Source: an uncultured Bacteroidota bacterium (GTDB lineage: Bacteria > Bacteroidota > Bacteroidia > Flavobacteriales > Flavobacteriaceae). From it: 64,000 bases of DNA. A program made the translations under genes and the position numbers. The stretch lies in the NCBI GenBank assembly GCA_902635895.1, contig CACPPV010000001.1, positions 1-64,000 on the forward strand. The letters are read 5' to 3'. The notes under the pieces are model-generated. The model was given only the letters and a program-made list of their open reading frames with translations, was not told the origin of the DNA and searched no databases. The stretch's first letter is position 1. The number at the start of each line of letters is the position of its first letter. This document shows positions 36,529 through 41,951 of this stretch, one piece after another.

Positions 36529-37812
36529 ATGAATTTTAACACAATTTTTGCTTTAGTTCCTAGTATTGAGGTCTTAGATCCCAATACTGATTTTAGCATT
36601 TTATGGGTATTACTTTCTGGTATACTTGTATTTTTTATGCAAGCTGGATTTACTTTAGTTGAGTCTGGATTTACCAAATCTTCAAACGCAGTTAACATTT
36701 CAATGAAAAATATCTTAGATATTTCTGTTGGAACTTTGTCTTTCTGGTTTATTGGTTATGGGTTAATGTACGGAGGTAGCTCTAATGGATTTATTATCAC
36801 TGAGATGAGTGATTTATTATTTAACCCTGGTGCGGGAGCTGAAGATGTATTTTTTCAAACTGTTTTCTGTGCAACAGCAGCTACTATAGTTTCTGGTGCA
36901 ATAGCAGGACGAACTAAATACTCTACTTATGCTTTATTCACTATTATTATGACGGCTCTTATATACCCAATTGCAGGTGGATGGGAATGGAATGGCGGAT
37001 GGCTTAATGCTGAATGGATGCCAGCAGAATTTATTGATTTTGCAGGTTCTTCAATTGTTCACTCAGTTGGTGGATGGGCTGCCCTTGTTGGAGCATGGAT
37101 GGTTGGACCTAGAATTGGAAAATTCGTTAACGGAGAGCCAGTTACCCTTCCAGGAAGTAATTTACTTGTTGGAACACTAGGTGTATTTATTTTATGGCTA
37201 GGTTGGTTCGGTTTTAATGGTGGATCTCAGTTAGCTTGGGGAGGTGACGATTCAGTCGCTGCATCAATGGTTGTGTTTGTAACTAATATTTCTGCTGCTG
37301 CAGGTGCAGTCGGAGCACTACTAATAAGCTGGTTAAAATACGGTAAACCAAATTTAACAATGACACTTAACGGGGTAATTGCCGGACTTGTAGCAATTAC
37401 TGCAGGATGTGGAAATATGACTCCAGGTGGAGCGTTCTTTGCAGGATTAGTTGGTGGTATCCTTGTAGTATACTCTATTGAATTTATCGAAAAAGTACTT
37501 AAAATTGACGACGCAGTAGGTGCAGCTTCTGCTCACGGTGTTGTTGGTGCATGGGGAACTTTAGTTATTGGACTATGGGGAGTTGATGGAGATGCTGGTA
37601 TAGGACTTTTTAATGGTGGTGGAGGTGCACAATTTGGTGCACAAGCTATTGGTGTTTTAGCTTATGGAGCTTGGGCAGCAATCACATCATTCATTGTATT
37701 TTATGTATTAAAAGCGACTTTAGGATTAAGAGTTTCTAAAGAAGAAGAGGAAAACTTAGATTTAGCCGAGCATGGAGAAATTGGATTCGCTGGAAAAAGA
37801 ACAAGAGAATAA
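36529..37812 (+). CDS. amt: Ammonium transporter (Amt/MEP), copy 1
   Basis: MQAGFTLVESGFTKSSNAVNISMKN, SSIVHSVGGWAALVGAW, AASAHGVVGAWGTL. Confidence 0.95.
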   Translation: MNFNTIFALVPSIEVLDPNTDFSILWVLLSGILVFFMQAGFTLVESGFTKSSNAVNISMKNILDISVGTLSFWFIGYGLMYGGSSNGFIITEMSDLLFNPGAGAEDVFFQTVFCATAATIVSGAIAGRTKYSTYALFTIIMTALIYPIAGGWEWNGGWLNAEWMPAEFIDFAGSSIVHSVGGWAALVGAWMVGPRIGKFVNGEPVTLPGSNLLVGTLGVFILWLGWFGFNGGSQLAWGGDDSVAASMVVFVTNISAAAGAVGALLISWLKYGKPNLTMTLNGVIAGLVAITAGCGNMTPGGAFFAGLVGGILVVYSIEFIEKVLKIDDAVGAASAHGVVGAWGTLVIGLWGVDGDAGIGLFNGGGGAQFGAQAIGVLAYGAWAAITSFIVFYVLKATLGLRVSKEEEENLDLAEHGEIGFAGKRTRE

Positions 37813-37847
37813 ATAAACAACATATAAAAATTAATAAAACTATAATT

Positions 37848-38513
37848 ATGAAAAACTTAATAAGAAAAACAATTGGATTGCTAACGGTAATATTAACAAC
37901 GTCAGCATTATTAACATCAAATACTTCAAATGCTCAAGATTTAGGAGCAGACGTGGTAAGCTCATATGTATGGAGAGGAACTCAGTTTGGTTCAGGTGCA
38001 CACATTCAACCATGGGTATCTCTAAGTACTGGAGATTTAGAAGTTGGTGCTTGGGGAAGTTTTCCAACTACTGCTAACGGAGGAGGAAATGAATTAGATT
38101 TATACGCTAGCTACAGCTTTGGAAAATTTGGTTTAACATTAACTAACTACTCTTTCCCTGGTGAAGGTGGTGCATACGCTGATGGCGAAGGATTATTTGA
38201 AGGAGACTACTTCGAAATTTCTGGATCTGCAGAATTAGGACCAATCGGATTAATGGTAGGATATTTCACTGAAGTTGAAGCTCTATATATTGAAGCTGCT
38301 TTCTCTGCTGGTCCAGTAGATGTAGCCATTGGATATGGTGATGATTCAGGAGATGCATGGTATGTAAACGGAGGAAGTGGATTATGTAATATTTCTTTAG
38401 GTGGGTCTAAAGACATAAAAATTACGGAGGACTACTCTTTACCTGTTTTCGGTTCATTTGTATATAACCCAGACTCAGAAGCTGCATTCCTTGTATTTGG
38501 AATGAGCTTCTAA
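37848..38513 (+). CDS. TorF-family-like putative outer membrane porin
   Basis: Signal peptide; DLGADVVSSYVWRGTQFG, YEVGAWGSF-type alternating beta pattern, terminal FVYNPDSEAAFLVFGMSF. Confidence 0.75.
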   Translation: MKNLIRKTIGLLTVILTTSALLTSNTSNAQDLGADVVSSYVWRGTQFGSGAHIQPWVSLSTGDLEVGAWGSFPTTANGGGNELDLYASYSFGKFGLTLTNYSFPGEGGAYADGEGLFEGDYFEISGSAELGPIGLMVGYFTEVEALYIEAAFSAGPVDVAIGYGDDSGDAWYVNGGSGLCNISLGGSKDIKITEDYSLPVFGSFVYNPDSEAAFLVFGMSF

Positions 38514-38576
38514 TTTAAATTAGGAATTACTCGGATTTTATATCCCTAATTCATATTATTATGTTGTTTTGTAAAG

Positions 38577-38600
38577 AGCCCGGCATTGCCGGGCTTTTTC
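38577..38600 (+). terminator. Strong rho-independent terminator
   Basis: AGCCCGGC-ATT-GCCGGGCT followed by TTTT. Confidence 0.9.
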
Positions 38601-38730
38601 GATTTTTAGAAATCAATAATTAACACCCCTTGATTTTACAATAATCAGAATTTTGAAATATGAAAATTATGGATATTGTAAAAATTACACATTTAATGAG
38701 AATTATGTTACAGTAAAAAAGGCAAAACCA

Positions 38731-38738
38731 TAAATTTG
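38731..38738 (+). promoter_or_regulatory. -7 box TAAATTTG for PII-amt2
   Basis: Exact TAnnTTTG, 41 nt before the likely ATG at 38780. Confidence 0.45.
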
Positions 38739-38779
38739 GTTCGAATTTTACATTGAATAACATAATTTATTACAAAATC

Positions 38780-39118
38780 ATGAAAAAAATTGAAGCAATT
38801 ATTCGAAAATCTAGATTTTCGGATGTCAAAAAAGCACTTCACGGCGTTGAAGTAAACTTTTTTTCCTACTGGGACGTAACCGGTGTTGGAAATGAAAAAG
38901 TTGGCCATGTATATCGTGGTGTAACCTACAGTACTGCGGATATTCAAAGAAGGTTTCTATCTATTGTAGTTTCAGAACCATTCGTTGAAAAAACAGTAAA
39001 TGCAATCTTAGAATCAGCATTCACAGGTGATGTTGGTGATGGAAAAATATTTATTCTTCCAGTTGAAGAAGCATACAGAATCAGAACTAAAGAAACAGGT
39101 AAAACATCATTAAATTAA
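38780..39118 (+). CDS. P-II family nitrogen regulator
   Basis: MKKIEAIIRKSRFSDVKKAL, VYRGVTY, GDVGDGKIFILPVEEAYRIRTKETG; internal start preferred over 38753. Confidence 0.93.
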   Translation: MKKIEAIIRKSRFSDVKKALHGVEVNFFSYWDVTGVGNEKVGHVYRGVTYSTADIQRRFLSIVVSEPFVEKTVNAILESAFTGDVGDGKIFILPVEEAYRIRTKETGKTSLN

Positions 39119-39122
39119 AATC

Positions 39123-40355
39123 ATGGAATTATTAACAGTTAACAACGTATGGATGATGATCTGTACAGCATTAGTATTTTTTATGCACCTTGGATTTTCA
39201 TTCTTAGAGATTGGATTAACAAGACAAAAAAATACAATTAATATTTTATTTAAAAACTTTTTTGTAATCACGGCAGGTTTAATAATCTACTGCTTAATCG
39301 GGTTCAATCTAATGTATCCAGGGGACTGGATCATAGAAGGAGTTCTTGGGACAATTGTTCCAGGTTTAGACTCAGTTGCTGCTACAGACCTTTCGTACAA
39401 TGAAGGTTATACTTACTGGACAGACTTTTTATTCCAAGGAATGTTTGCTGCGACTGCAGCTACAATAATTTCAGGTGCAGTTGCAGAAAGAATTAAAATT
39501 AATTCTTTTATTCTAATAGCAATTTTATATGTAACTATTGTATATCCAATTGTTGGTTCTTGGCAATGGGGTGGAGGATTTTTTAGCAATTTTATCTCAG
39601 ACGATTTAGGGTTTTACGATTTTGCTGGGTCAACTCTAGTTCACTCAGTTGGTGGATGGGGTGCACTTGTTGTAATTTACTTCCTTGGAGCAAGAAAAGG
39701 AAAGTTTGATGAAAACGGCAATCCACTAGCAATTACAGGTTCTAATATCCCACTTTCTGCAGCTGGAGTACTAATCTTATGGTTAGGATGGTTTGGATTT
39801 AACGGAGGATCGGTTCTTTCAGCTGATCCGTCGTTGACATCACTTACACTTGTAACTACTTGTCTTGCCGCTGCAGCTGGAGGAATCGGAGCTGCTGTAT
39901 TATCCAGAGTTCTTTATAATAACTTAGACTTAACAATGTTCATGAATGGAGTATTAGGTGGTTTAGTTGGAATTACTGCAGGAGCTGATCAAATGTTACC
40001 TACTTCAGCTATTTTAATAGGTCTAATTGCTGGAGGTATTGTAGTTCTTTCTGTCGCATTTCTTGATAAATGCAAATTAGACGATCCTGTTGGAGCAATA
40101 CCTGTTCACCTATTTTGTGGTATCTGGGGAACACTAGCGGTTGGTATTTTTGGAGAAATGGCTGGATTCGATCAGTTTATGGTTCAACTTGCGTGTGTAG
40201 GTATAACTGGTGTATTTTGTATTATACTTGGAACTATAATTACATTATTTGTAAGATCAGTTGCTGGTCTAAGAGTTGATGAAAAAGAAGAAATTCAAGG
40301 ACTAGATATCGCAGAACACGGAACTAGAGCTTACGGAGACTTCAGAGTGAATTAA
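39123..40355 (+). CDS. amt: Ammonium transporter (Amt/MEP), copy 2
   Basis: FMHLGFSFLEIGLTRQKNTINI, STLVHSVGGWGALVV, GAIPVHLFCGIWGTLAVG. Confidence 0.95.
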   Translation: MELLTVNNVWMMICTALVFFMHLGFSFLEIGLTRQKNTINILFKNFFVITAGLIIYCLIGFNLMYPGDWIIEGVLGTIVPGLDSVAATDLSYNEGYTYWTDFLFQGMFAATAATIISGAVAERIKINSFILIAILYVTIVYPIVGSWQWGGGFFSNFISDDLGFYDFAGSTLVHSVGGWGALVVIYFLGARKGKFDENGNPLAITGSNIPLSAAGVLILWLGWFGFNGGSVLSADPSLTSLTLVTTCLAAAAGGIGAAVLSRVLYNNLDLTMFMNGVLGGLVGITAGADQMLPTSAILIGLIAGGIVVLSVAFLDKCKLDDPVGAIPVHLFCGIWGTLAVGIFGEMAGFDQFMVQLACVGITGVFCIILGTIITLFVRSVAGLRVDEKEEIQGLDIAEHGTRAYGDFRVN

Positions 40356-40388
40356 ATATTATAACTATTTTCATATAAATTTTATAAT

Positions 40389-41951
40389 ATGAAAATGGAT
40401 TTTATCAAAAAACTGCAATGTTTAATATTTTTAACATTGCAGTTTTGTTTTATATATGGTCAAGAAAATTTAAGTCAAGGACCATACGAGCAACTAATTT
40501 TAAGAAATACTACTTTAATTAATGGAAATGGTGCACCTCCTATTGGTCCAGTAGATATTGAAATAAGAAATAATGTTATTACAAAAATTAAGACTGTTGG
40601 ATATCCTGGAGTTGAAAAAAGAAATAGTTTAAAACTAGATAAAAATGGACATGAACTAAACTTGGATGGTATGTATGTATTACCAGGATTTGTTGATATG
40701 CATGGACATATTGGGGGTAAATCCCAAGGAGCTGAACCAGATTATGTTTTTAAACTCTGGATGGCTCATGGAATTACAACCATAAGAGAGCCAAGTGGAA
40801 GAAGTCTAAATTTTAATTTGGATTTAAAAAAGAAAAGTGAAAATAACTCTATAATAGCTCCTCGAATTTTTACTTACACTGGTTTTGGTAGAGGATCTGA
40901 AATAAATACCCCCGAAGATGCTGTAAATTGGGTAAGAGATAATGCTAAAAAAGGTGCTGATGGCATAAAGTTTTTTGGATCACCACCTGAAATTTTAGAT
41001 GCTGCTATCAAAGAAAACAAAAGGCTTGGTTTAAGATCGGCTTTTCATCACGCTCAAATGAGTGTAGCTAGGTGGAATGTTTTAAACTCAGCAAGAGCAG
41101 GACTTACTACAATGGAACATTGGTATGGACTTCCAGAAGCACTATTTAATGACAAAACAATTCAAAATTATCCTCCAAACTATAATTATCAGAACGAACA
41201 ACATAGGTTTGAAGAAGCAGGTAAGCTTTGGTCTCAATCTGCAGAACCATTTAGCGAGCATTGGAATAACGTAATGAATGAATTAATCAGTCTCGATTTC
41301 ACAATTGACCCAACTTTTAATATTTATGAAGCAAGTAGAGATTTGCATAGAGCTCGAAGAGCTGAATGGCATGAAGATTACACTCTTCCTTCCTTGTGGA
41401 AATTTTATGAGCCAAGTAAAATTTCGCACGGATCTTATTGGCATTATTGGGGAACCGAACAAGAAGTTCAATGGAAAAATAATTACAGACTGTGGATGAC
41501 TTTTGTTAACGAATATAAAAATAGAGGAGGTCGAGTTACAACAGGATCTGACTCAGGTTATATATATCAGCTTTATGGATTTGCATATATAAGAGAACTT
41601 GAATTGTTAAGAGAGGCTGGATTTCATCCCTTGGAAGTTATTCGTTCAGCTACACTCAACGGGGCTGAGGCATTAGGTTATGATCATAAAATTGGATCAA
41701 TTGAAGTTGGTAAACTCGCCGACATCATTGTAATTGAAGAAAACCCTCTAGAGAATTTAAAAGTTTTATATGGAACAGGAGCTATAAAATTAAATGAAAA
41801 AAATGAAGTAGTAAGAGTAGGTGGAGTCAAATACACCATTAAAAATGGTGTAATTTATGACTCCAAACTATTGCTTAAAGAAGTAAAAGATATGGTAAGC
41901 ATTAAAAAAGAAGAGGAAAATTTTGTAATTAAGCAGCCAGGAATAAAATAA
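40389..41951 (+). CDS. Exported amidohydrolase-family protein
   Basis: Signal peptide; LDGMYVLPGFVDMHGHIGG, GADGIKFFGSPPEILDAAI, TTGSDSGYIYQLYG, GSIEVGKLADIIVIEENPLENLK. Confidence 0.9.
   Translation: MKMDFIKKLQCLIFLTLQFCFIYGQENLSQGPYEQLILRNTTLINGNGAPPIGPVDIEIRNNVITKIKTVGYPGVEKRNSLKLDKNGHELNLDGMYVLPGFVDMHGHIGGKSQGAEPDYVFKLWMAHGITTIREPSGRSLNFNLDLKKKSENNSIIAPRIFTYTGFGRGSEINTPEDAVNWVRDNAKKGADGIKFFGSPPEILDAAIKENKRLGLRSAFHHAQMSVARWNVLNSARAGLTTMEHWYGLPEALFNDKTIQNYPPNYNYQNEQHRFEEAGKLWSQSAEPFSEHWNNVMNELISLDFTIDPTFNIYEASRDLHRARRAEWHEDYTLPSLWKFYEPSKISHGSYWHYWGTEQEVQWKNNYRLWMTFVNEYKNRGGRVTTGSDSGYIYQLYGFAYIRELELLREAGFHPLEVIRSATLNGAEALGYDHKIGSIEVGKLADIIVIEENPLENLKVLYGTGAIKLNEKNEVVRVGGVKYTIKNGVIYDSKLLLKEVKDMVSIKKEEENFVIKQPGIK
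40409..40450 (+). terminator. Terminator-like hairpin inside the 5' end of the amidohydrolase CDS
   Basis: AAAACTGCAATGTT (40409-40422), 10-nt loop, AACATTGCAGTTTT (40433-40446), then GTTT; 14-bp perfect stem. Confidence 0.7.

Follow-up and report, generated by a model that had tools for sequence, protein, structure and literature searches.

Probable Intrinsic Terminator of a PII-amt2 Operon within the Signal-Peptide Codons of the Following Gene in an Uncultured Marine Flavobacteriaceae Genus

A 14-bp hairpin with an adjoining T-tract, located in the signal-peptide codons of an amidohydrolase-superfamily gene, is very probably the intrinsic terminator of the PII-amt2 operon upstream of that gene in an uncultured genus of marine Flavobacteriaceae. 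The proposed terminator (hairpin H2) would occupy codons 7 to 19 of the amidohydrolase gene instead of the 33-nt intergenic gap behind the amt2 stop codon (40355), and it would double as part of the signal peptide. Most likely, judging from comparison across genomes, the operon terminator has been displaced into these codons and hence also serves as an attenuator of the amidohydrolase.

The window (the whole stretch of DNA analyzed) comprised the first 64,000 nt of a contig from a 1.32-Mb assembly (68% complete; G+C content of the host genome, 30%), and its features are listed in Table 1. Orthologous loci were compared across 20 genomes of the genus (draft assemblies, 51 to 93% complete), codon invariance was tested on an alignment of 11 full amidohydrolase genes, and terminator-like hairpins were scanned in a 442-kb background (182 kb of the host genome plus 260 kb of genome G016).

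TABLE 1 Features of the PII-amt2-amidohydrolase region (positions in the window)
Feature	Positions	Strand	Remarks
Classical intergenic terminator 5' of the PII gene	38573..38599	+	Same-genome reference terminator
PII nitrogen regulatory protein (PF00543)	38780..39118	+	Gene 1 of the amt2 operon
amt2, ammonium transporter (PF00909)	39123..40355	+	TIGR03644 marine subtype match below its cut-off; proposed target transcript of H2
H1 5' arm, CTATTTTCATAT	40365..40376	+	Inside conserved box ATA(A/C)CTATTTTCAT
H1 3' arm, ATATGAAAATGG	40387..40398	+	Includes the start codon of the amidohydrolase (40389-40391)
Amidohydrolase-superfamily protein (PF01979, E 1e-20), 520 aa	40389..41951	+	Predicted secreted; signal-peptide codons overlap H2
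H2 5' arm, AAAACTGCAATGTT	40409..40422	+	Putative terminator stem; amidohydrolase codons 7-12
H2 loop, TAATATTTTT	40423..40432	+	Length 10 nt in 14/14 genomes, sequence variable
H2 3' arm, AACATTGCAGTTTT	40433..40446	+	
H2 T-tract, TTTTGTTTT	40443..40451	+	First four T common to the 3' arm

Two amt genes lay near each other in the window (36529-40355), in the order amt1, a 221-aa protein, a strong terminator, and PII-amt2. The 221-aa protein beside amt1 (37848-38513) looked secreted and was without a Pfam match. An imperfect inverted repeat (TTTTACAATAATCAGAATTTT / AAAATTATGGATATTGTAAAA, 38634-38683) that lies past the amt1-side terminator and ahead of the PII gene could be a regulator site for the PII-amt2 promoter.

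The initial annotation had described a perfect 14-bp hairpin with a 10-nt loop, about 20 nt into the amidohydrolase coding sequence (CDS) and followed by a T-rich run, and all of this was read in the sequence, with its span (40409-40450) correct to within 1 to 2 bases. The arms were perfectly complementary, the stem began 20 nt into the CDS, and seven or more uninterrupted T followed in 12 of the 14 genomes that carry H2. When the RNA of 40403-40452 was folded, a free energy of −17.2 kcal/mol was obtained (z score, −5.9), and none of 200 shuffled sequences was equally stable. Only 4 to 5 of the pairs were G-C, as in most terminators found in the present analysis. The annotation had also held that the same bases encode LQCLIFLTLQF of a signal peptide whose start is hard to move, and this was borne out. 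The earliest in-frame ATG of the 520-codon open reading frame (ORF) is at 40389; after M1 and M3, the next Met lies far into the protein (LDGMYVLPGF); and a signal-like N-terminal segment stands at the same place in amidohydrolase orthologues outside the genus, so that conservation of the N terminus fixes the start. The gene is under purifying selection in relatives (dN, 0.01 to 0.08; dS, 0.2 to 1.3).

The H2 motif occurred once in the 1.32-Mb assembly, and a search of 400 family genomes returned the copies in the genus, three chance-like matches, and nothing else. In the 442-kb background, 24 strong terminator-like hairpins were intergenic, and the sole robust site on the sense strand of a CDS was H2, in both genomes. 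Further CDS matches were two weak mid-gene sites at the very edge of the energy threshold and an antisense hit, which was the other strand of H2. A simple terminator scan missed H2, most likely because it allowed loops of up to 8 nt and required the T-run after the whole stem. No Rfam family matched the H1/H2 region above its gathering score; the one hit was to NrrF, on the other strand (15.6 bits; cut-off, 60). As previously noted, the amt2 operon has no other obvious terminator before the hairpin: no other strong one was found between the amt2 stop and H2. Among the intergenic terminators of the window and of L104-L109 (contig C1), several had a near-identical core, AAAAACCCTC...GAGGGTTTTT or AAAAGCCCTA...TAGGGCTTTT, a pattern that would fit the spread of, or a preference for, one terminator sequence in the host genome.

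H2 combines a stable RNA stem-loop with a U-rich tract directly 3' of the stem, and, judged by gene position alone, it stands at an operon end. Like terminators at operon ends, it has a stem containing G-C pairs, an A-tract before it, and a T-tract after it, and it begins 50 to 59 nt past the last stop codon; unlike them, it falls within the next gene's coding sequence and not in an intergenic gap. H2 agrees with an ordinary intrinsic terminator in every defining feature testable in sequence and is predicted to work like one; it differs in its place.

Comparison across the genus indicated that the pairing itself is conserved. H2 was kept at the same codon in 14 of the 20 loci, with the T-tract abutting the stem. 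Within its 12-pair core, every varying pair stayed paired on the sense RNA, save for a single pair in a single genome. Of the cells for the 14 scored pairs, 95.9% were paired, versus 32 to 57% when partners were slid. Seven of the 14 pairs never varied, so the covariation count is modest, with two pairs changed on both sides. The one-sided changes in the core had a clear direction. Six out of seven gave G-U on the sense RNA, and none would pair on the antisense strand, which favors a hairpin in the sense RNA over a palindrome in DNA or a terminator on the antisense strand. The initial annotation had named loss of the stem in relatives with the same gene order as a refuting result; in the genus the stem is instead retained (14/20 loci), and its covariation and sense-strand G-U changes exceed what the codons require.

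These data also bear on whether the inverted repeat is instead a DNA operator for a dimeric regulator, with two half-sites about 12 bp apart. The nearly invariant arms and the spacing, constant in 14/14 genomes, would suit such a site. A duplex-DNA site, however, would not require wobble changes to fall on the sense strand and never on the other, nor does an operator account for the conserved T-tract behind the stem, the presence of the motif at one place per genome, or the decay of the stem where an intergenic terminator exists. The operator was rejected as the main reading for its lack of other copies and the sense-strand wobble, and we regard it as very improbable.

Codon usage in the overlapped peptide pointed to selection on the RNA. 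All seven invariant residues encoded by the stem used one codon throughout, compared with 31/272 elsewhere in the gene (Fisher P = 5e-7). Among 30 invariant Leu residues, only two had an invariant codon; both were inside the H2 stem, and one was CTG, which makes up 2.5% of Leu codons in the host genome. When the host peptide was recoded with the codon usage of its own genome, an equally strong terminator arose in 1 of 3,000 trials. Across 13 genomes, recoding of the signal peptide gave 0 to 2 equally strong terminators per 3,000 trials in each. A chance origin, or a protein constraint under which the codons for the peptide form an inverted repeat by accident, would be helped by the AT-rich DNA of this genome; set against these recoding results, the invariance of rare codons, and a double synonymous change in G006 (CAA>CAG with TTG>CTG, turning A-U into G-C), it is exceedingly improbable. 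On this evidence, selection for RNA pairing has maintained H2, and the sequence of the signal peptide (Leu-Gln-Cys, Leu-Gln-Phe, and the rare CTG codon) has apparently been shaped by the RNA.

H2 and classical terminators tended to replace each other. Four genomes (G004, G011, G002, and G017) had a classical terminator in the gap from amt2 to the amidohydrolase gene, and H2 was decayed in all four. No genome of the 20 had both an intergenic terminator and an intact H2, and two (G013 and G007) had neither (Fisher P = 0.003, ignoring kinship). The amt tree implies about two origins of the intergenic terminator, the two kinds differing in sequence, so few independent events underlie the correlation; on the amidohydrolase tree, the four genomes group in a single clade, weakly supported and nested among species that carry the hairpin, which would make the switch a single event. 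A sign test on independent pairs had two pairs only and was without power. As for the exceptions, G013 has a decayed H2 and no substitute terminator, and in G007 (L134; G007:C129, end), amt2 is followed directly by a paralogous amidohydrolase, with H2 absent and no terminator seen; that locus retains the conserved box and ATGAAAAA.

Of 26 amt loci from outside the genus, 19 had a terminator starting 20 to 84 nt 3' of the amt stop, a range that includes the distance of H2 from amt2. In outgroups where amt precedes the amidohydrolase (L073, L081, L092, L095, and L100), a terminator lay in the gap, and no terminator-like stem was found in the signal peptides of outgroup amidohydrolase orthologues. 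In G006 (L125:4804-5154, G006:C7), the amidohydrolase is reduced to a 116-aa chimera, in which its own N terminus is joined to the tail of a different gene. A paralogous amidohydrolase comes next, and both H1 and H2 are intact; retention of H2 beside such a remnant is expected if it serves amt2. The chimera may reflect a genuine deletion or an assembly error, and the G006 locus may be chimeric, since its Amt is placed among other genera on the amt tree.

Stem conservation, decay of H2 beside intergenic terminators, and a similar distance from amt2 to the terminator in most relatives all support the operon terminator proposed in the initial annotation. The hairpin might instead stabilize the 3' end of amt2 mRNA, mark an RNase processing site, or brake early translation of the signal peptide, all without terminating transcription. 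Hairpins in early codons can stabilize or process 3' ends or slow translation, and sequence alone does not distinguish mechanisms at 3' ends; the T-tract directly 3' of the stem, the trade-off with classical terminators, and the outgroup signal peptides of the same protein without such a stem nevertheless make roles of this kind improbable.

The initial description was correct for H2 and overlooked the adjacent 12-bp hairpin (H1) that pairs the amidohydrolase start codon. H1 and the box ATA(A/C)CTATTTTCAT before the ATG (40359-40398) were kept in nearly all loci of the genus. Since many genes of this group begin with ATGAAAA, the ATTTTCAT-ATGAAAAT pairing alone says little. Counted over 16 distinct sequences, with the arms concatenated and the loop left out, the two bases that follow CAT covaried with the two that precede ATG; the first inner pair was GC or AU, and the second was AU, UA, or GC and was broken in 6/16. 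In G000, the start-codon helix was the longest among 375 genes. Predicted openness of the start codon was at most 0.0045 in all 14 genomes with H2 (kinship ignored); among the six without H2, it was 0.006 to 0.49 in five and 0.0007 in G007.

The box might be a −7 element of an amidohydrolase promoter. Parts of ATAACTATTTTCAT, evaluated as a general promoter motif, were not clearly enriched upstream of genes, whereas TAnnTTTG was (54 occurrences versus 16.6 expected). The box matches TAnnTTTG poorly, and a sigma-70-type scan gave no promoter excess. Across C1 and G016:C3, TAnnTTTG (the Bacteroidota −7 element) was about threefold enriched within 70 nt upstream of starts, and TAnnTTTA about twofold upstream of genes.

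In the proposed mechanism, RNA polymerase arriving from amt2 would make the hairpin and U-tract about 50 to 95 nt past the amt2 stop and mostly terminate. Any amidohydrolase mRNA, whatever its promoter, must read through this terminator because H2 lies inside the CDS, and such obligatory read-through would make H2 also an attenuator, with amidohydrolase output low or conditional. The position of H2 and measurements on terminators in early ORFs of Escherichia coli lead us to infer that H2 limits amidohydrolase expression, as the initial annotation had suggested. Terminators within the first 100 bp of a coding region worked efficiently in E. coli; where one stood 30 bp past the AUG of the second ORF in a construct, translation of that ORF cost it only about 10% of its efficiency (Li et al., PMC4824070). 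H2 is therefore predicted to work even when the amidohydrolase is translated. Those constructs resemble H2 in having a terminator about 20 to 30 nt past the AUG of the following ORF and in working despite translation; theirs was built, whereas H2 is natural, conserved across the genus, and under codon-level selection.

The same study may offer a reason for H1. Ribosomes starting at the second ORF lowered upstream expression, which the authors ascribed to non-stop decay, and silencing of the second start codon cured the loss (PMC4824070). By analogy, H1, which would pair the amidohydrolase start codon on read-through RNA, may also block initiation on terminated amt2 transcripts, in which the final ORF lacks a stop codon, and so keep ribosomes off a stop-less mRNA end. 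The two hairpins could then form an insulator in which H2 ends the operon within the next gene, H1 hides the start codon, and messages from a local promoter escape this lid. Local transcripts starting 3' of the H1 5' arm would lack the lid and be translated, and the cell would tell overlapping transcripts apart by whether their 5' end carries one arm of H1. The covariation of the inner pairs, the modeled contrast in start-codon openness, and the helix length in G000 are consistent with a two-hairpin insulator, which we put forward tentatively.

Compatible with termination at H2, and going further, is a regulated attenuator, whose read-through would be set by nitrogen state, translation of the first codons, or an RNA-binding protein. 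The location of H2 within a conserved gene and beside a nitrogen-sensing operon fits regulation of this sort, and the adjoining H1 could couple translation to termination. The consensus fold, however, held H1 and H2 only, coexisting, with no conserved antiterminator helix, and Rfam returned no regulator matches; we consider regulated read-through rather unlikely.

Among known systems, the ORF-internal 3' ends mapped by Term-seq in E. coli (Adams et al., PMC7815308) resemble H2 in that RNA 3' ends lie in coding regions. In the parts of that study consulted, RNase processing was the main suggestion for ORF-internal small RNAs, with intrinsic termination suggested for aceK int only, and, unlike our proposal for H2, the ends were not described there as the end of an upstream operon. 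Leader-peptide attenuators of the pyrBI type, as outlined in PMC4824070, likewise have a terminator overlapping a CDS and a possible interplay of translation and termination. In that outline they differ from H2, where the overlapped ORF encodes a real signal peptide of a 520-aa protein and neither a leader peptide nor an antiterminator helix was seen. In the portions of the open-license literature covered, no described case was found of a natural operon terminator conserved in the signal-peptide codons of the next gene.

H2 would be a natural case of a functional noncoding signal and a protein segment written in the same bases. It raises the questions of how a gene with a terminator 20 bases past its start codon gets expressed and how the cell avoids ribosome stalling on stop-less mRNA ends. 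Searches for terminators only between genes would miss sites like this one. The finding suggests that a small and gene-dense genome can have an operon terminator shifted into the gene that follows and retain it there.
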